Source: Phycisphaerales bacterium (GTDB lineage: Bacteria; Planctomycetota; Phycisphaerae; Phycisphaerales; SM1A02). From it: a stretch of DNA of 7,583 nucleotides. The notes beneath the pieces are model-generated. The model was not told the origin of the DNA. It searched no databases and saw only the letters and a program-made list of their open reading frames with translations. The stretch is taken from assembly GCA_030748805.1 (NCBI GenBank), contig JASMLG010000101.1, positions 1 to 7,583 on the forward strand, read 5' to 3'. The first letter of the stretch is position 1; each line of letters starts with the position of its first letter. Of this stretch, positions 1 through 7,571 are shown piece after piece. The position numbers and the translations under genes were made by a program.

Positions 1-1194
1 TAAATTTGTTCTGCGTATTACGAAATAATCGCAAATCATAATCCCAGCAATTGGACCAAGCAGAGCGCTGTACCCAATTAGCCAAGTAAAAATGTAATCA
101 CCTAAATCGTTGTACAAACGCCAAGGCATGATGACGATTCCGATGATGCAAGTAATAATTCCACCTGTCCTAAACGAAATTTTACTTGGGCTAACATTTG
201 CAAAACCGTTTGCGGGGCTTACAACGTTGGCTGCGATGTTTGTAGAAAGTGTTGCGATAGTCAATGCAATCAAGGAAATTACCACAGCTGTTGTTGAGCC
301 AAGTTTACCGACGAGTACTATCGGATCCCAAATAGCGCTTCCAAAAATAACGATGGTTGCTGATGTAACAGCAATCCCTATAAAAGAAAACAATGTCATA
401 GTTGTTGGCAATCCAATTAACTGACCTAGGGCTTGATCTTTTTGTGTCTTGCAATACCTCGTAAAATCAGGAATGTTTAAACTCAATGTTGCCCAGAAAC
501 CAACCATAGCAGTAAGTTGCGGGAAAAACATTGGCCAGAATGGAGCAGGGTTTTCGGGAGGCGGTGGAAACATTTTTGTAACTCCACCAACTTTTATTGC
601 AGCCCAAATTAAAAGTGCTAGCCCCATCGCAATGAGAAATGGTGCAGCCCATGACTCAAGCCACTTTATGCAATCAATACCACGAAGAACTATGACGAAA
701 TTCAAAATCCAAAACGCGATAAAGCACAAAAACTGTAACCCAGTTATCCCAAGGAAAGGTAAAACGTTTGTGTCCCCTGCAATATCAAGCCAACCAAGGG
801 CACCGAGTACTTGATAAATGGCAAATCCACCAATCCAAGTTTGTATTCCAAACCAACCACAAGCAACCAATGAACGAGCGATTGCTGGTATGTGAGCGCC
901 TTTTGTTCCGAAACTTGCGCGTGCTAGTACGGGAAAAGGTATCCCAAACTTTGTACCAGCATGCCCCATTAAAATCATTGGAACTAAAACAATTAAATTA
1001 CCAAGAAGGACAGTTCCAACCGACTGCCACCAAGTCATTCCCGCTTGAATCATGGACGCGGCAAGCATATACGTTGGGATACAAACTGACATGCCAATCC
1101 AAAGTGCTGCTAAGTGCCACTTCGACCAAGTTCTACTTTCGATTGGAACTGGAGCAATGTCTGAATTGATGAGGTGATTTAGTTCGGGGGTCAT
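1..1194 (-). CDS. NCS1-family nucleobase/hydantoin permease, C-terminus cut by window edge
   Basis: Reading leftward from ATG at 1194 the frame stays open for 398 codons to the window edge; family members are near 480-500 residues, so roughly the last 90 are missing. The protein is strongly hydrophobic, with about ten membrane segments visible. Family hallmarks are GWFGIQTWIGG (residues 113-123), NIPDFTRY (240-247) and STNIAANVVSPAN (317-329). By my own alignment from memory to the sodium-hydantoin symporter Mhp1, Trp114, Gln118, Trp234 and Asn323 match its substrate-site Trp117, Gln121, Trp220 and Asn318. Ala30, Ile33, Ala314, Ser317 and Thr318 match its sodium ligands. It is therefore probably a sodium-coupled inner-membrane importer. 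Its start overlaps the stop of the beta-ureidopropionase gene (ATGA, 1191-1194), so the two are probably translationally coupled. Context favours uracil, thymine, dihydropyrimidine or an N-carbamoyl derivative; hydantoin or allantoin cannot be excluded. Confidence 0.93.
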   Translation of the reverse strand, partial: MTPELNHLINSDIAPVPIESRTWSKWHLAALWIGMSVCIPTYMLAASMIQAGMTWWQSVGTVLLGNLIVLVPMILMGHAGTKFGIPFPVLARASFGTKGAHIPAIARSLVACGWFGIQTWIGGFAIYQVLGALGWLDIAGDTNVLPFLGITGLQFLCFIAFWILNFVIVLRGIDCIKWLESWAAPFLIAMGLALLIWAAIKVGGVTKMFPPPPENPAPFWPMFFPQLTAMVGFWATLSLNIPDFTRYCKTQKDQALGQLIGLPTTMTLFSFIGIAVTSATIVIFGSAIWDPIVLVGKLGSTTAVVISLIALTIATLSTNIAANVVSPANGFANVSPSKISFRTGGIITCIIGIVIMPWRLYNDLGDYIFTWLIGYSALLGPIAGIMICDYFVIRRTNL

Positions 1195-2060
1195 GGTTTG
1201 GTTATTTGTGTGTAACTATCTGGTCTTCGGTCACGGAAAAATTGCCAAGTGTTTCGTACTTCTTCTATCAAGTCAAGGTCTAAATCTGCAACAACGACTT
1301 CGTCTTGGTCTCTTGAACCCTCGACCAAAATTTGTCCACGAGGATCACAGAAATAACTTTGCCCGTAAAACTCACCGATTCCCCAAGGGGCTTCGGTACC
1401 AACTCTATTAATAGCACCAACGTAAAATTGATTTGCAACAGCGTGTGCTGGTTGTTCAAGTTTCCAAAGGTACTCGCTTAAGCCCGCAACCGTAGCAGAC
1501 GGATTGAACACAATTTCCGCTCCGTTTAATCCAAGTTCACGAGCGCCTTCTGGAAAGTGCCGGTCGTAACAAATATAGACACCGATTTTACCTGCGCTTG
1601 TTTCAAAAACAGGATAACCAAGGTTGCCCGGCTTAAAGTAAAACTTTTCCCAGAATCCGGGATTGCAATGGGGAATGTGGTGCTTACGGTATTTGCCAAG
1701 GTATTTACCATATTCATCAATGACTGCCGCAGTGTTGTAGTAGACGCCAGTCATGTCAACTTCATAAATTGGCACGACGAGAATCATCTTGTGTTCTTTT
1801 GCAAGTTGTTGCATTAACTTAATCGTAGGACCATCTGGTATTTGCTCAGCAATTTCATACCAACGAGTGTCTTGTTCAGCGCAAAAGTATGGTCCGTAAA
1901 AAATTTCTTGTAAGCAAGTTACTTGTGCACCTTGTTCTGCTGCTTGTTTGATGAGTTCGATATGTTTATCAATCATCATTTTTTTCGTTTCATCAATAGA
2001 TGAATCCGGAGGTGCTGGATTTGATGCTTGGATCAGGGCTGCTCTGGTTATTCTTGTCAT
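1191..2060 (-). CDS. beta-ureidopropionase (N-carbamoyl-beta-alanine amidohydrolase), nitrilase superfamily
   Basis: This 289-residue cytoplasmic enzyme should hydrolyse N-carbamoyl-beta-alanine (or N-carbamoyl-beta-aminoisobutyrate) to the beta-amino acid, CO2 and ammonia, the third step of reductive pyrimidine breakdown. The carbon-nitrogen hydrolase fold is complete. The catalytic Glu lies in LQEIFYGPYFC (Glu52), the Lys in KYRKHHIP (Lys126) and the Cys in YICYDRHFPEG (Cys164); Glu138 in FWEKFYFKPG fits the second conserved Glu. The motif pattern is that of the UPB1/N-carbamoylputrescine-amidase branch. Assignment over N-carbamoylputrescine amidase (polyamine synthesis) rests on the neighbours, a semialdehyde dehydrogenase and an NCS1 permease. 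The start is ATG at 2060, six bases after GGAAAGGA; an in-frame TTG at 2066 would touch the Shine-Dalgarno. Its stop overlaps the permease start. Upstream lie tandem copies of its own start region. Confidence 0.9.
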   Translation of the reverse strand: MTRITRAALIQASNPAPPDSSIDETKKMMIDKHIELIKQAAEQGAQVTCLQEIFYGPYFCAEQDTRWYEIAEQIPDGPTIKLMQQLAKEHKMILVVPIYEVDMTGVYYNTAAVIDEYGKYLGKYRKHHIPHCNPGFWEKFYFKPGNLGYPVFETSAGKIGVYICYDRHFPEGARELGLNGAEIVFNPSATVAGLSEYLWKLEQPAHAVANQFYVGAINRVGTEAPWGIGEFYGQSYFCDPRGQILVEGSRDQDEVVVADLDLDLIEEVRNTWQFFRDRRPDSYTQITKP

Positions 2061-2101
2061 TTGCAATCCTTTCCGGGGGTTGCTCTTGTTATTCTTGTCA
2101 T
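2057..2101 (-). CDS. Mini-ORF 3 of the tandem array (14 residues, hypothetical)
   Basis: ATG at 2101 reads MTRITRATPGKDCK and its TGA (2059-2057) overlaps the true start codon of the beta-ureidopropionase gene (2060-2058) as ATGA. The sequence in front of it, GGAATGGCTTGCAA, is a weakened Shine-Dalgarno, so efficient initiation here would depend on ribosomes ending mini-ORF 2. Codons 10-12 contain the GGAAAGGA used by the real gene. A function is not known. Confidence 0.4.
   Translation of the reverse strand: MTRITRATPGKDCK
2067..2074 (-). promoter_or_regulatory. Ribosome-binding site of the beta-ureidopropionase gene
   Basis: On the minus strand GGAAAGGA sits six bases before ATG 2060, good Shine-Dalgarno spacing. 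It fixes the start at 2060 rather than the TTG at 2066. The site lies inside the third upstream mini-ORF (codons 10-12, GGA AAG GAT), so a ribosome translating that mini-ORF passes over it. Confidence 0.75.
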
Positions 2102-2142
2102 TTGCAAGCCATTCCGGGGGTTGCTCTGGTTATTCTTGTCAT
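2098..2142 (-). CDS. Mini-ORF 2 of the tandem array (14 residues, hypothetical)
   Basis: ATG at 2142 reads MTRITRATPGMACK and stops at a TGA that overlaps the third ATG (2101) as ATGA. Its own Shine-Dalgarno GGAAAGGA is intact, with six bases to the ATG. Codons 10-12 read GGA ATG GCT instead of GGA AAG GAT, and this change also destroys the Shine-Dalgarno of the following mini-ORF. The first 21 bases are identical to the start of the beta-ureidopropionase gene, marking it as a recent copy. A function is not known. Confidence 0.4.
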   Translation of the reverse strand: MTRITRATPGMACK

Positions 2143-2183
2143 TTGCAATCCTTTCCGGGGGCTACTCTTGTTATTCGGGTCAT
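2139..2183 (-). CDS. Mini-ORF 1 of the tandem array (14 residues, hypothetical)
   Basis: ATG at 2183 opens a 14-codon frame reading MTRITRVAPGKDCK, then TGA. It is preceded by GGAAAGG at suitable distance (GGAAAGGATACGC then ATG), which starts about 14 bases after the mmsA stop. Its TGA (2141-2139) overlaps the next ATG (2142-2140) as ATGA. It mirrors the first six residues of beta-ureidopropionase (MTRITR). No function is known to me. Either it is a translated coupling or leader peptide, or it is a by-product of the duplication. Translation is plausible because it has its own Shine-Dalgarno and lies close behind a translated gene, but it is not shown. Confidence 0.4.
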   Translation of the reverse strand: MTRITRVAPGKDCK

Positions 2184-2206
2184 GCGTATCCTTTCCGTTC
2201 CGGTGG

Positions 2207-3679
2207 TTAAAACCAACGACTGACTAAAATTCTTCCTTCGGTATAAAAACGAACTGAATCCTCACCGTTGGAATGTAATGTTCCAAAGAAGGAGTCCTTC
2301 CAACCACAAAACGGGAAGACCGCCATTGGAGCAGGAACACCAACGTTAATACCAATCATTCCTGCTCCTGCAGTATCTTTAAATTTGTTTGCTGCGAAAC
2401 CACTGTCCGTAAACATTACTGCCATGTTTCCATAAGGAGAGCGGTGAGTTACAGCAATTGCATCATCAAGCGTATCGACTCTTAAAATCGAAAGCACAGG
2501 ACCAAAAATTTCTTCCATTGCTAGTGCGCTATCAGGTGGGACATTATCAAACACCGTTGGTCCAACAAACCCCCGAACTTTGATATCTCTACCATCTAAC
2601 AATAACTCTGCCCCCGCTTCGATACCTTCCTCAATTGCTTTTGTTACTCTTTGCACGCTCGCTTCATCAATAAGCGGTCCCATACCGCAACCTTGTTCAT
2701 CACCTTTTGCAACATTGATTTGTTTCGCTGCCTCAACGACTCTTGGAATAAACCAATCTGGGGCATCGCCAACTAGCACCGCAATTGAACCAGCCAAACA
2801 TCTCTGTCCTGTATTTCCCATCGAAGAACTAATCACTCCATCGATTGCGGCATCTTGGTTTGCGTCGGGCATGATAATCATAGTGTTCTTAGCACCAGCC
2901 ATGCACTGCACTCTTTTACCTTTGGCTGAAGCAGTCGAATAGATGTGTTTTGCTACAGCAGTCGAGCCAACAAAAGAAACTGCTTTTACGTCGTCGTTAG
3001 TTAAAAGATGATTCACAACATCTGGTCCACCAGTCACCATATTCAAGACCCCCGCAGGCAAACCCGCTTCGTGTGCAAGTTCAACTTCTCTCAACGCACA
3101 AAGAGAGACCTTTTCAGAAGGTTTTAAGACAAAAGTGTTCCCGCAAGCAATTGCCATTGGCCACATCCAAAGTGGAACCATAATTGGGAAGTTAAAAGGA
3201 GTAATTCCAACGCATACACCAAGCGGAACACGTTCAAGCGAACTATCTAACGGTATGCCTTCCTCCCGTTCACGGCTAAATGAAGTCGAAACAGCAATTC
3301 GTGGTAACGTCCTTCCCATCATCAACGATGGCGCTCCGCAAGCGTATTCAACACAATCAATTCCCCTGCGAACATCTCCTCTTGCCTCTGCAGTTGTTTT
3401 ACCATGTTCATCGACAATCATTTGAGTGAGTTCGTCGAAGTGCTTTTCAAGTAATTCCTTGAAGCGGAACAAAACTTGGCACCGTTCACCTACTGGCGTT
3501 TCACTCCAACCCCGGAACGCTTTCTCTGCTGAAGCAACCGCTTTCTCTGCTGCGGAGATTTCATCCATTACTACTTCTGCTAAAACTGCACCAGTGGCTG
3601 GGTTAATATCATCACACTTTTCCCCGTTTCCGGGTGCAACGCATTTTCCATCAATAAAATGTTCGATTGTGTTTGTCAT
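2207..3679 (-). CDS. mmsA: CoA-acylating (methyl)malonate-semialdehyde dehydrogenase
   Basis: This 490-residue ALDH-superfamily enzyme should oxidise malonate or methylmalonate semialdehyde with NAD+ and CoA to acetyl- or propionyl-CoA plus CO2. It would complete beta-alanine and beta-aminoisobutyrate breakdown. Visible motifs are the oxyanion Asn163 in PFNFP, KPSE with Lys186, the NAD-site loop FVGSTAVAK, catalytic Cys294 in NTGQRCLAG, and EEIFGPVL near 389. The family tail GWKDSFFGTLHSNGED (from 459) through RFYTE is characteristic of MmsA/IolA. The general-base Glu of hydrolytic ALDHs (LELGGK) is absent; CMAGAK stands there, as expected for a CoA-dependent enzyme. The Arg just before Cys294 and one of Arg104/105 fit the carboxylate-binding arginines of the family. 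Start: ATG 3679 gives the usual N-terminus (TIEHFIDGK). ATG 3700 would add seven residues and overlap the lipoprotein gene. GGAAGG in the last lipoprotein codons is the likely, rather distant, Shine-Dalgarno. Valine or inositol breakdown is an alternative role. Confidence 0.95.
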   Translation of the reverse strand: MTNTIEHFIDGKCVAPGNGEKCDDINPATGAVLAEVVMDEISAAEKAVASAEKAFRGWSETPVGERCQVLFRFKELLEKHFDELTQMIVDEHGKTTAEARGDVRRGIDCVEYACGAPSLMMGRTLPRIAVSTSFSREREEGIPLDSSLERVPLGVCVGITPFNFPIMVPLWMWPMAIACGNTFVLKPSEKVSLCALREVELAHEAGLPAGVLNMVTGGPDVVNHLLTNDDVKAVSFVGSTAVAKHIYSTASAKGKRVQCMAGAKNTMIIMPDANQDAAIDGVISSSMGNTGQRCLAGSIAVLVGDAPDWFIPRVVEAAKQINVAKGDEQGCGMGPLIDEASVQRVTKAIEEGIEAGAELLLDGRDIKVRGFVGPTVFDNVPPDSALAMEEIFGPVLSILRVDTLDDAIAVTHRSPYGNMAVMFTDSGFAANKFKDTAGAGMIGINVGVPAPMAVFPFCGWKDSFFGTLHSNGEDSVRFYTEGRILVSRWF

Positions 3680-3689
3680 GTTGTGTAGT

Positions 3690-6389
3690 TTACCTTCCAT
3701 TCAACTTGGACAACGCCTCTTTTGCAAGAGTAAAGGTCGGTTGTAACTGCACCGCAACTTTAAACGATTCAATTGCCGCATTATTGTCACCTACTGACGA
3801 TTGAGCGTTGCCAAGGTGATACCAAGCGAGCGCAAACGTGGGTGCTAGTTGTACTGATTGTTCTAAAAAATCTAATGCCTTGGAGCCATCACCAAGTTTG
3901 TACCAAGCGTATCCAAGTGCCGCGAGCATCCGAGGATTATTTGGTTGCAAGGCGTTTGCAATTTCCAAATGCTGTAATGCTCTATCAAATTGTTTGCTTC
4001 CAAGAAACGAATTACCAAGTTCAAATTGAATTGTGCTGTTACTTGGAACAAGATCTACTGCTATTTGCAAAAGTTTCTGAGATTCTTCTGATTTGCCAAG
4101 TTGTTTAGCTGCAAGCGCGTATCGGTATCGTGTTTCGGATTGCAGCGTCACGTCTTGTGACATTGCAAATGGTGAGTCCATTGGAACTTCAAAAGCATGT
4201 TTGTAGTATGAATACGACTTGTCATACATTTTTAGGTTGTACGCAAGTTGCGCAATGTTCGCATACGACAAACTATGGTTTGGTTCATCTATAAGTATTG
4301 CTTCCCAAACCGCATTAGCTTCGTCAAATCGACCTGCCATGTACAAAGCCCAGCCGTACTTCGTTCTTGTCATAACATATTCTGGATCTGTAAGTAAACC
4401 AGCTTCAAGATGGACAATCGATTCAGCAATTGAGTCCTCAGTCAGTCGATCACTTCGCAATAAAATATTTGCAAGTGCTAAACGTGCATCTTTGTTCGTG
4501 CCATCAATTTTGATTGCTCTTCGCAACAATCGTTCTGCAGAATCAATATCTCCAGCAATAAAGTCCGTTTGTGCTTGAGTTACAAGATGATGAGCGAGGA
4601 TACAAAGTTCCTCTACTTCCATAAGCCAAGGGTCATCCATTTGAAAGCCCATATCAATTGCAGTGTATGGAGCATGTGGCTGATTATCCATCTCTGCCTT
4701 TGCCGTCAGTACAAGCGAAGTTGCTGCAGGAATATTTGTGTGTTCTAATATCACGAGCACATCTCGCCAAGCACCTTCGTCGGCTGCAAGTTGAGCAAGC
4801 GCAACTTTTGCATAATCGGTGTTTGCTCCCCGTAAGTATTCCTTAGCGAGATCGATGTCACCAATCCCGACATACAACTCACCTAGACGAGTTTGTAACG
4901 GTAAGTATGTAGGATCAAGTTGTTCTGCATGTTGAAAATATGTAAGCGCTGAAGCACTATCCCCTACAGCAACATCGAGCATGCCAAGGTAGTACGGCCA
5001 GCGAGCGTTTGTTGGCTCTTCTTGCATTGCTTGCGAGTACTCCTTACGTGCAGGTAATCCATTAGCATGCAAAAACATTCCCCTTTCCCCAAGGGTTGCA
5101 ATATGTTGCAACTCAATTCGAATTGTTTCAGGTAGCAATTGTTCATGAGTTGTTGACACACCTTCACCATCATTTTTCCAAAGTGCCACTCTTGTAATTT
5201 GATCAAAGGGTGGGTACAGCGCCATCCCACCAACAACTATGTCGGGTCTACCGTCACCTGTAACATCACCAACATCACACGTTACCAAATGGGTTGGTTT
5301 GCTCGCTATGTTTTTCCGAGTAAACGAACCGCCGTCGCCCTGCTCCCACCAAACAATACTCGCTGTCTCTGGTTTATCCCAATGAGCGAACTCGGCAACT
5401 GTAACAATATCGAAATCACCATCACCGTCCAAGTCAATTACCGAAGGACCATACGCACCATCAAGTTGCCCTATTCGATGATAGACAAAATCTAAATCAC
5501 CGCGGTTCTCAAGCCACTGCAGACCATGCGTTGGTAGCGGTCTGTAATCAACAGCAACAAAGGCGTCGCCATTTGTCCAGATAACATCATCATCGCCGTC
5601 TCGGTCAAGATCAGCAATTGTTATACCCGAACTTGAAAAGTCAGCGTCAGCAACATCGTGCAAAATGATTTGCTTAAAGTTTCCACTGCCATCATTTACA
5701 AACCCATAAACCGTCTCCCACTCTTGCGAGAGAAGCGTAACGATATCAAGATCACCATCGTTATCAATATCTGTAATTGGTGCATGAATCGCGCCGCTCT
5801 TGTTTATGAGTTGATGTCTTGAAAAGTTCCAATCACCTTCATTTTCAAACCACCCTACTTGCCCCTGTGTATATCCGAACTGTGCGACAGACAAGTCCAA
5901 ATCACCATCGCCATCGAGATCTCCTGCTTGCACATCAGTAACACGCTGAATTTCTTTTGCAATAACATGTTTTGTAAACGTTTCGCTTCCATCATTTTCT
6001 AAAACGATTACTTCGCCAGTATGAGAATCGGAAGGAAGAATGGTTCCCATCACCGCAACGAGCACATCCAAATCACCGTCGTCATCCATGTCAATTGTTT
6101 CAGCATGCACAGCCCCCGAAACCGACGGAAGTATTGTTTGTTCTATGCCGTGACTAATCCAACTGACCTTCCGCCCAAGCACATCACAAACCAAAACATC
6201 ATTTTCGCCATCCTGATTTAAGTCCACAATATTGACATGGGCAATTGTTGGACGATCGGTAGATTTCGGCAAATCGCCCAGTGGCGCAACCTTGATTGGT
6301 TGTTCACTCGATTCAGGTGCATCTATATATGTATCACTGCAACCGATAAGGGCGATTGAAGTAATTAACAATACTAAATTCCGAAACAT
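3690..6389 (-). CDS. Large lipoprotein: seven-bladed FG-GAP/VCBS beta-propeller plus TPR domain
   Basis: This 899-residue protein begins with a lipoprotein signal peptide (MFRN, hydrophobic LVLLITSIALIG, lipobox LIGC, Cys17), so it should be lipidated and face the periplasm or cell surface. Residues about 50-410 hold seven FG-GAP calcium-type loops of DxDxDGxxD form, beginning at Asp56, 100, 157, 207, 260, 319 and 375, spaced 44-59 residues, as in a complete integrin-alpha-like propeller. Residues about 455-896 are a TPR superhelix with at least eight repeats, clearest at 463-495, 605-630, 677-703, 755-783, 787-817, 820-850 and 854-884. No enzymatic motif is seen, so it is probably a binding or scaffold protein; the ligand is unknown. 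It is the first gene of the operon and ends 10 bases before mmsA. A GAGGG abuts the ATG within a hairpin. Whether it helps pyrimidine use or merely shares the transcript cannot be told. Confidence 0.9.
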   Translation of the reverse strand: MFRNLVLLITSIALIGCSDTYIDAPESSEQPIKVAPLGDLPKSTDRPTIAHVNIVDLNQDGENDVLVCDVLGRKVSWISHGIEQTILPSVSGAVHAETIDMDDDGDLDVLVAVMGTILPSDSHTGEVIVLENDGSETFTKHVIAKEIQRVTDVQAGDLDGDGDLDLSVAQFGYTQGQVGWFENEGDWNFSRHQLINKSGAIHAPITDIDNDGDLDIVTLLSQEWETVYGFVNDGSGNFKQIILHDVADADFSSSGITIADLDRDGDDDVIWTNGDAFVAVDYRPLPTHGLQWLENRGDLDFVYHRIGQLDGAYGPSVIDLDGDGDFDIVTVAEFAHWDKPETASIVWWEQGDGGSFTRKNIASKPTHLVTCDVGDVTGDGRPDIVVGGMALYPPFDQITRVALWKNDGEGVSTTHEQLLPETIRIELQHIATLGERGMFLHANGLPARKEYSQAMQEEPTNARWPYYLGMLDVAVGDSASALTYFQHAEQLDPTYLPLQTRLGELYVGIGDIDLAKEYLRGANTDYAKVALAQLAADEGAWRDVLVILEHTNIPAATSLVLTAKAEMDNQPHAPYTAIDMGFQMDDPWLMEVEELCILAHHLVTQAQTDFIAGDIDSAERLLRRAIKIDGTNKDARLALANILLRSDRLTEDSIAESIVHLEAGLLTDPEYVMTRTKYGWALYMAGRFDEANAVWEAILIDEPNHSLSYANIAQLAYNLKMYDKSYSYYKHAFEVPMDSPFAMSQDVTLQSETRYRYALAAKQLGKSEESQKLLQIAVDLVPSNSTIQFELGNSFLGSKQFDRALQHLEIANALQPNNPRMLAALGYAWYKLGDGSKALDFLEQSVQLAPTFALAWYHLGNAQSSVGDNNAAIESFKVAVQLQPTFTLAKEALSKLNGR

Positions 6390-6983: not shown

Positions 6984-7571
6984 ATGTCAACTGTTCGCGG
7001 AGAAATTACACAATTCTTAGACGACGCTTCCACAGGAGACAGCGTTGCTATCGCTCGTTTATGGCAAGAAGTAAACGAAGATGTTCACGACATGGCAGAA
7101 AATATATGCAGACGAGAATTTGCAGGCAACACGATTCAGCCCACCCTTCTCGTCAACGAGGTTTGGATGCGACTCTACGGCAAAGATGGCGAGCAACTAA
7201 CTTGGGAAAACCGAGCCCATTTCTTTGGAAGTGTAGCCCGCTCGATGGCACAGATTCTTGTCGATTACTCGAGGAAACGAAATACAATCCGGCGCGGCGG
7301 CGACAGGAAGAAACTTTCAATCGACTTAGTTCCAGGCGAACTTACCTCCAAAGAAACCTGCGTCAACGAGATGATCGAGCCGTTAATGTTGGCAATCAAA
7401 AAATTACAACAAGTCAACGAACGAGCAGCAGAAGTGATTCGCCTTCGTTACGTGCTTGGATTAACCATAGAAACAACAGCAGATATCATTGGCGTAACCG
7501 ACCGCACAGTGCGAACCGATTGGGTCTGGGCGAGGGCGTGGCTTAGGCGCGAACTCAAAGATGACAATTGA
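6984..7571 (+). CDS. ECF-type RNA polymerase sigma factor (TIGR02999/sigma-70 ECF-like family)
   Basis: This 195-residue protein has region 2 at about 20-100 and region 4 at about 132-191. TLLVNEVWMRLY (54-65) and HFFGSVARSMAQILVDYSRK (79-98) are typical of the TIGR02999 family. They cover the core-binding and -10-recognition helices. Region 4 carries the helix-turn-helix (ETTADIIGVTDRTVRTDW, 163-180) for -35 recognition, followed by ARAWLRREL. The length is normal and nothing is missing. ATG 6984 follows GAGAG at four to five bases. No anti-sigma factor is visible; in planctomycetes genes of this family are often followed by a Ser/Thr kinase gene, and here another ATG frame begins inside the last codons. 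Target promoters are unknown. I see no convincing promoter in 6883-6983. Confidence 0.93.
   Translation: MSTVRGEITQFLDDASTGDSVAIARLWQEVNEDVHDMAENICRREFAGNTIQPTLLVNEVWMRLYGKDGEQLTWENRAHFFGSVARSMAQILVDYSRKRNTIRRGGDRKKLSIDLVPGELTSKETCVNEMIEPLMLAIKKLQQVNERAAEVIRLRYVLGLTIETTADIIGVTDRTVRTDWVWARAWLRRELKDDN

Follow-up and report, generated by a model that had tools for sequence, protein, structure and literature searches.

How did four copies of the beginning of one gene come to lie head to tail inside an operon, and does the chain of overlapping short reading frames that they form serve to deliver ribosomes, or is it the by-product of a duplication? This question is raised by the window, i.e., the whole stretch of 7,583 nucleotides that was analysed, where a tandem array adds 123 bp between a dehydrogenase gene and the gene of a carbon-nitrogen hydrolase (hereafter, the enzyme), which is followed by a permease gene (Table 1). 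Each 41-bp unit consists of a Shine-Dalgarno sequence (SD), an ATG and the initial codons of the beta-ureidopropionase-like gene, and the four minus-strand ATGs, at 2183, 2142, 2101 and 2060, are spaced by exactly 41 nt. The first three of them open frames of 14 codons each, with TGA codons that end at 2139, 2098 and 2057, and the fourth is the start of the 289-residue enzyme. At all three junctions within the array the TGA of one mini-ORF and the next ATG share the letters ATGA.

Table 1. Features of the operon and of the tandem array, in window coordinates
Feature	Position	Strand	Basis or remark
mmsA-like (methyl)malonate-semialdehyde dehydrogenase	2207..3700	minus	Pfam PF00171 and NCBIfam TIGR01722, above cut-off
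First leader, with SD GGAAAGGA	2184..2206	minus	sequence; regarded as the original leader
Tandem array, four copies of a 41-bp unit	2036-2197	minus	TRF, repeat search, lag test
Mini-ORF 1, MTRITRVAPGKDCK	2139..2183	minus	TGA overlaps the next ATG by 4 nt
Mini-ORF 2, MTRITRATPGMACK	2098..2142	minus	TGA overlaps the next ATG by 4 nt
Mini-ORF 3, MTRITRATPGKDCK	2057..2101	minus	TGA overlaps the enzyme ATG by 4 nt; degraded SD upstream
Carbon-nitrogen hydrolase, beta-ureidopropionase-like, 289 aa	1191..2060	minus	Pfam PF00795
NCS1 nucleobase permease, runs past the window edge	1..1194	minus	PF02133 and TIGR00800, above cut-off

The earlier note on this DNA had described the repeated units and the 14-codon frames in the same terms, and both its coordinates and its arithmetic agree with TRF and with the sequence, including the overlap of the last mini-ORF with the true start. 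Its count of the steps was off by one: the ATGA shared by the end of the enzyme gene and the beginning of the permease gene (1194-1191), which it called the fifth, is the fourth junction of this kind, and the four ATGs that precede that junction allow three re-initiations instead of four. Overlaps of 4 or 1 nt are the ones taken to indicate termination-reinitiation, and the 4-nt form is present at four ATGA junctions, that of the permease included.

The copies are not identical, since seven substitutions relative to the consensus are found when the three mini-ORFs are summed. The SD that precedes the ATG at 2101 is degraded, with GGAATGGC in place of GGAAAGGA; the enzyme's own SD is intact, with GGAAAGGA placed 6 nt before the ATG and a predicted interaction with the anti-SD of -5.4 kcal/mol. 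The leader before 2183 differs from the repeated one; without gaps it matches the last spacer at 7/20 positions, and by eye an indel separates the two. When gaps are allowed it resembles by eye the leader of a congener that has no array (G036), with only 9/20 ungapped matches in the last 20 nt. One site in codon 5 alternates across the copies (A, C, A, C), and the first and third spacers are identical over 16 nt, a pattern that might suggest growth by dimers, from two to four copies, but that is too thin to be claimed.

With regard to the operon itself, the enzyme reached the cut-off of none of the NCBIfam equivalogs, the best being N-carbamoylputrescine amidase (256 bits versus 410), and the source names of its relatives vary among beta-ureidopropionase, N-carbamoylputrescine amidase, acyltransferase and nitrilase-related hydrolase. 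The label beta-ureidopropionase therefore rests on the names of some relatives and on the neighbouring genes; the dehydrogenase and the NCS1 permease would fit a role in pyrimidine breakdown. Read from the sequence in ten members of the genus, the enzyme-permease junction is -4 in the window, G035, G029 and G038, -1 in G031 and G032, 0 nt in G001 and G028, and 16 nt in G030; for G036 it is -1 when the first of its ATGs is taken as the start. By eye, this ATG shares its frame with a TTG further downstream, which fits the other starts. Elsewhere in the window, a gene for an FG-GAP/TPR protein (3690-6389, minus strand) is divergent from that of an ECF sigma factor (6984-7571, plus strand; TIGR02999 above cut-off). 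An adapter origin was considered for an ORF that starts with MYKRQ at 110, and was rejected given that no match to the Nextera adapter was found with up to 3 mismatches.

The repetition clearly exceeds chance. TRF reported a period of 41 with 4.0 copies, a score of 233 and 86% matches in the window, and the lag-41 identity within the array is 0.835, versus a maximum of 0.446 among 2000 single-base shuffles; thus, the copies are a genuine head-to-tail repeat. A long ORF (at least 100 codons) preceded by a chain of three ATGA-linked mini-ORFs (10-40 codons each) was searched for on both strands of 190 related loci, some of which overlap or come from one genome, and none was found in 3.38 million strand-bases, with a script that does recover the chain of the window. 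Two-member chains start at 33 positions of these loci, several of them nested in one chain or present under two locus identifiers. It could be argued that the assembly of the metagenome made the repeat or miscounted its copies; this is very improbable, because the copies carry several different substitutions and one SD variant, and a related two-copy state occurs independently in another genome (G028, see below).

The predicted RNA fold of the region is unremarkable (z -0.21), Rfam gave no match within the window, and no sigma-70-like promoter was detected at 1900-2400. Five terminator-like sites were found versus a mean of 0.5 in shuffles; four of these lie among the repeats on the plus strand, in antisense orientation to the operon, and the remaining one falls within the dehydrogenase gene (minus strand). 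They are tentatively taken as a composition effect of the repeat.

A central issue is whether the precise geometry of the chain demands selection. All single tandem duplications with a period of 20-100 were simulated on the inferred single-copy start, i.e., the leader and gene of the window, each unit beginning 9-40 nt before the ATG and ending 4-60 nt after it. The exact ATGA chain was the outcome in 310 of 1796 cases (17%). This outcome was rarer (0.8%) when the starts of 128 relatives were used, because few of their genes begin with ATGA; in the same simulations a stop that overlaps the next start by 1-20 nt was obtained in 9.5% of the duplications. The gene begins with ATGAC in the window, with ATGGC in eight of the nine congeners and with ATGTC in G028; the lower yield in the relatives thus identifies the ATGAC of the window as the special ingredient. 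As ATGAC is common to all four copies, it was probably present before the duplication. With ATGG instead, the mini-ORF would extend 13 nt into the unit that follows, which is equal to the overlap seen in G028. Likewise, the fact that the three mini-ORFs are still open carries little weight, given that 6-8 random substitutions (7 were observed) leave all of them open in approx. 30-41% of the trials. The chain therefore needs no selection, and neither the substitutions, nor the decayed SD, nor the RNA folding show any sign of constraint.

From these results, the array is with fair probability a nearly neutral tandem duplication of the gene's own start that has been tolerated because of the stop-start overlaps that form by themselves. 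Duplication is supported by the register of the tandem copies with the start of the gene and by the single start found in eight of the nine congeners that carry it. Slippage or recombination would have duplicated in tandem the beginning of the enzyme gene, comprising the SD, the ATG and approx. eight codons, and the repeat would then have grown to four copies of 41 bp. Each upstream copy would become a 14-codon ORF with a stop that overlaps the following ATG, as expected given that 41 leaves a remainder of 2 on division by 3 and that the gene begins with ATGAC. Ribosomes would enter at an intact SD, terminate at ATGA, and a fraction of them would reinitiate on the next ATG, so that passage from the first leader through the mini-ORFs would involve a loss at each step; direct entry may also take place at the intact SDs, including the last one. 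Since ribosomes would be handed along or enter directly, the insertion of 123 bp would cost the enzyme little, and the array would be close to neutral or would cause a modest change in expression.

Previous work with reporters gives some ground for this proposal. In both E. coli and Haloferax, tight coupling has been reported for overlapping gene pairs; the final 15 nt of an upstream gene were enough for coupling, and a spacing of approx. 20 nt nearly abolished it in a gene-dependent manner, one pair retaining 60% at 14 nt (PMC10666635). In the array, the TAA of the dehydrogenase (2209-2207) lies 23 nt upstream of the first ATG, so coupling from the dehydrogenase gene is probably weak. Removal of an intragenic SD is reported to have altered reinitiation to widely differing degrees, and one overlapping pair of E. 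coli, bioBF, showed no coupling (PMC6728339); hence, the geometry would be no guarantee of reinitiation. The termination-reinitiation scheme of the earlier note may be retained in the sense that the geometry appears competent according to these reporter data (PMC10666635, PMC6728339), but not with its four steps. The chain itself is probably what lets the enzyme tolerate the insertion.

An alternative is that the array is a relay under selection, in which serial coupled entry sites raise or buffer the translation of the enzyme and, by way of the ATGA between the two genes, that of the permease, without dependence on the dehydrogenase gene. The -4 overlap at all three array junctions and the tight enzyme-permease junction in most of the ten genus members agree with it, as do the duplicated start of G028, which is in equal phase, and the scarcity or absence of comparable start duplications in the other genes sampled; besides, ribosome delivery by natural short ORFs has precedents, such as ORF-11 of the integrons as reported in PMC8876359. 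We consider this alternative unlikely, given that the SD of the third mini-ORF has decayed, that the geometry arises readily in the simulations, that the openness of the mini-ORFs is not in excess, and that a single start suffices in eight of the nine congeners. For the same reasons, the tuning or ribosome-loading role put forward in the earlier note finds no support in the sequence, and its other suggestion, a neutral product of slippage, is at least as likely as a functional role, although the duplication in G028 speaks against pure neutrality.

The distribution of the array among relatives bears directly on this point. The closest genomes found are metagenome-assembled genomes of Phycisphaerales; L001 shows 94% protein identity, and proteins with 92-95% identity are encoded by nine genomes of the genus to which L001 belongs, whereas at the DNA level their enzyme genes are only 80-83% identical to that of the window. 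Nearer proteins exist (P0002 with 98% and P0122 with 97% identity, in a protein-level comparison). An enzyme with more than 90% identity is encoded in 9 of the 13 genomes of the genus. The earlier note had proposed to compare the same intergenic region in relatives: eight of these nine congeners have a single start, but G028 (locus L086) carries a weaker, two-copy counterpart. Its two starts are 44 bp apart and in the same phase as in the window; an ATG located 28 nt past the dehydrogenase stop opens an ORF of 18 codons, MARVTRAATAEKDFVCQG, which reaches 13 nt into the enzyme gene and ends there in TAA. In this duplicated start of G028 (L086:1457-1513), the upstream copy, ATGGCACGAGTAACAAGAGCAGCA, is by eye more similar to the starts of the other congeners than is the start of the gene itself.

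An upstream copy of the start was convincing only in the window (23/24) and in G028 (18/24) among 130 enzyme starts, with scores that were reached by none of 200 single-base shuffles in either case; the next-best copies scored 15/24, and this value was matched by 4-14 of 200 shuffles. The scan comprised 131 starts including the window, of which 130 have upstream sequence (L048 was dropped). It holds some genomes under two identifiers (L001/L085 and L003/L102 among them), and 10 of the 130 tallied positions, being aligned first residues and not true starts, are not ATG, GTG or TTG. For the sampling of the family, 20 further loci were added, and others at approx. 65% identity and below were left out. 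In the 13 genomes of the genus, the array unit was detected at no locus other than this gene, and among the matches listed for 400 sampled genomes of the order, with at most two candidates scored per genome, it appeared only in G028 and G036, at this same gene, and in G379; the genome of the window itself lies outside these two sets. The match in G379, which is outside the genus, covers 35 bases at 86% identity and is weak (G379:C71:17398-17432, locus L149, E 1.1e-4). Viral contigs gave no match to the array pattern, and contained five distant relatives of the enzyme with 52-54% identity.

Some separate observations were made on these loci. Before the enzyme ATG at 1501 of L083 (G035) lies what is by eye the longest dehydrogenase-enzyme gap among the single-start congeners, and it holds a hairpin-like pair, AACTGCCTAC/GAGGTAGTT, and an out-of-frame ATGAC right before the real start. 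P0001 is a 400-residue homologue of the enzyme with an internal repeat of approx. 110 residues on a contig of 1671 bases, due to internal duplication or misassembly. In a TRF survey of the fetched loci (618,731 bases), 5 of the 25 arrays with a period of 20-120 found outside the genus are at or near candidate ORF starts (L008, L017, L062, L070 and L080).

Is the start of this gene then prone to duplication? No ATG-aligned upstream copy with at least 19/24 matches was found for 904 ORFs (1268 candidate ATGs) in 1.10 Mb, out of approx. 7.8 Mb, from four congeners; this sample was limited to non-overlapping ORFs of 300 nt or more and to ATGs no further than 90 nt from their earliest possible start, and the window and G028 served as controls. 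The start of one other gene scored 18/24, equal to G028 (L229, period 142), and was judged a chance match of a ATGATGATT run. For the enzyme gene, on the other hand, the start is duplicated in two of the ten genus members that have it, the window counted. With two such cases here and at most one doubtful case elsewhere, either two lineages have retained the result of an old event or there is a gene-specific cause, i.e., the start of this gene duplicates, or is retained, more readily than others. Both explanations look less neutral, and the duplication of the G028 start at an equivalent place and phase counts against the nearly neutral reading.

The first of these explanations supposes that the ancestor of the window and G028 already had a leader mini-ORF followed by the gene, and that this two-copy state was lost elsewhere and expanded in the window; it is compatible with either near-neutrality or a selected relay. 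The phase was kept in spite of the 3-nt difference in length (41 versus 44, both of which leave a remainder of 2 on division by 3), which hints at constraint. The spacers that precede the gene in the window and in G028 are identical at 14 of 20 positions, whereas the best of the other 128 leaders reach 10/20 with the window spacer and 11/20 with that of G028, and when the window spacer was shuffled base by base, the observed gapped score was attained in 2 of 2000 cases. As 71 of 111 fourfold sites differ between the two genes (64%), a surviving similarity of the spacers would mean constraint. However, part of the spacer match is owed to the shared SD, the comparison was chosen after the data had been seen, several losses would be required, and a clade of the window and G028 is neither backed nor rejected (AU p 0.195) by a poorly supported tree that contains partial dehydrogenase sequences of G036 and G038; the tree of the enzyme alone is likewise poorly supported. 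We therefore regard an old two-copy state as a possible but rather doubtful explanation. A bolder proposal, to which we assign quite a low probability, is that the array amplifies a gene start and thereby raises or buffers the expression of one member of the operon: tandem ribosome-entry sites linked by 4-nt overlaps would relay ribosomes, whichever copy they entered at, into the enzyme and the transporter, and their copy number would be a dial tunable by slippage, with G028 (two copies) and the window (four) as two of its settings. The case of G028 keeps such more interesting readings open.

The array would be informative whichever of these readings is correct. If the mini-ORFs are translated, they offer a natural test of the handover of ribosomes through successive 14-codon ORFs, and of whether serial extra initiation sites raise or lower the output. 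If, as we favour, the array is nearly neutral, it illustrates how an operon can accommodate a duplicated start codon, the stop-start overlaps arising spontaneously, and suggests a route by which duplicated gene starts could give rise to small leader ORFs.

Several known systems resemble the array in part. The ATGA junctions themselves are equal to the -4 junctions at which overlapping genes are reported to undergo termination-reinitiation (PMC6728339, PMC10666635); such junctions normally link two real genes, whereas here they link three mini-ORFs copied from the downstream gene. In the integrons, the short leader ORFs ORF-11, ORF-17 and ORF-18, which have their own SD, are reported to act through coupling and so to supply the gene behind them with ribosomes (PMC8876359). 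An integron leader is a single ORF of unrelated sequence, in contrast with the mini-ORF of the window, present in three copies of the gene start. These leaders are best known for cassettes that have no initiation signals of their own, although they also precede some that have them; the enzyme gene retains GGAAAGGA. In the synthetic bicistronic design, a short first cistron is placed ahead of the target gene (PMC5995908). Those leaders are engineered and single, while the array of the window is natural and fourfold. Bicistronic design leaders combine a stop-start overlap with an internal SD. The leader regions of ermC reportedly include natural tandem duplications in a translational leader, but this leader is the attenuator of an inducible gene, and we know of no ATGA chain formed by its duplications.

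The closest precedent is that of the mycobacterial interspersed repetitive units (MIRUs), which are reported in a 2025 review to insert at start codons, where their internal ORF is coupled at -4 nt to the gene with a likely minimal impact on expression (PMC12548453). The array shares with them a short ORF at the start of a gene and the -4 spacing, the latter at its three ATGA junctions. MIRUs are dispersed and apparently mobile; by contrast, the 41-bp unit of the window is the gene's own start, and was not dispersed in the genomes searched. Their description in 1997 reportedly included copies arranged in tandem between a pair of co-transcribed genes. No natural array in which tandem copies of a start are coupled to one another was found in the open-access literature searched, as judged by titles and the openings of abstracts. 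Even so, the statement of the earlier note that no such case had been described was too strong, considering the -4 coupling reported for MIRUs (PMC12548453). The coupling of a short ORF to a gene start is a logic already known from these elements, and what sets the window apart is an array of starts that is self-derived, fourfold and linked by -4 overlaps.
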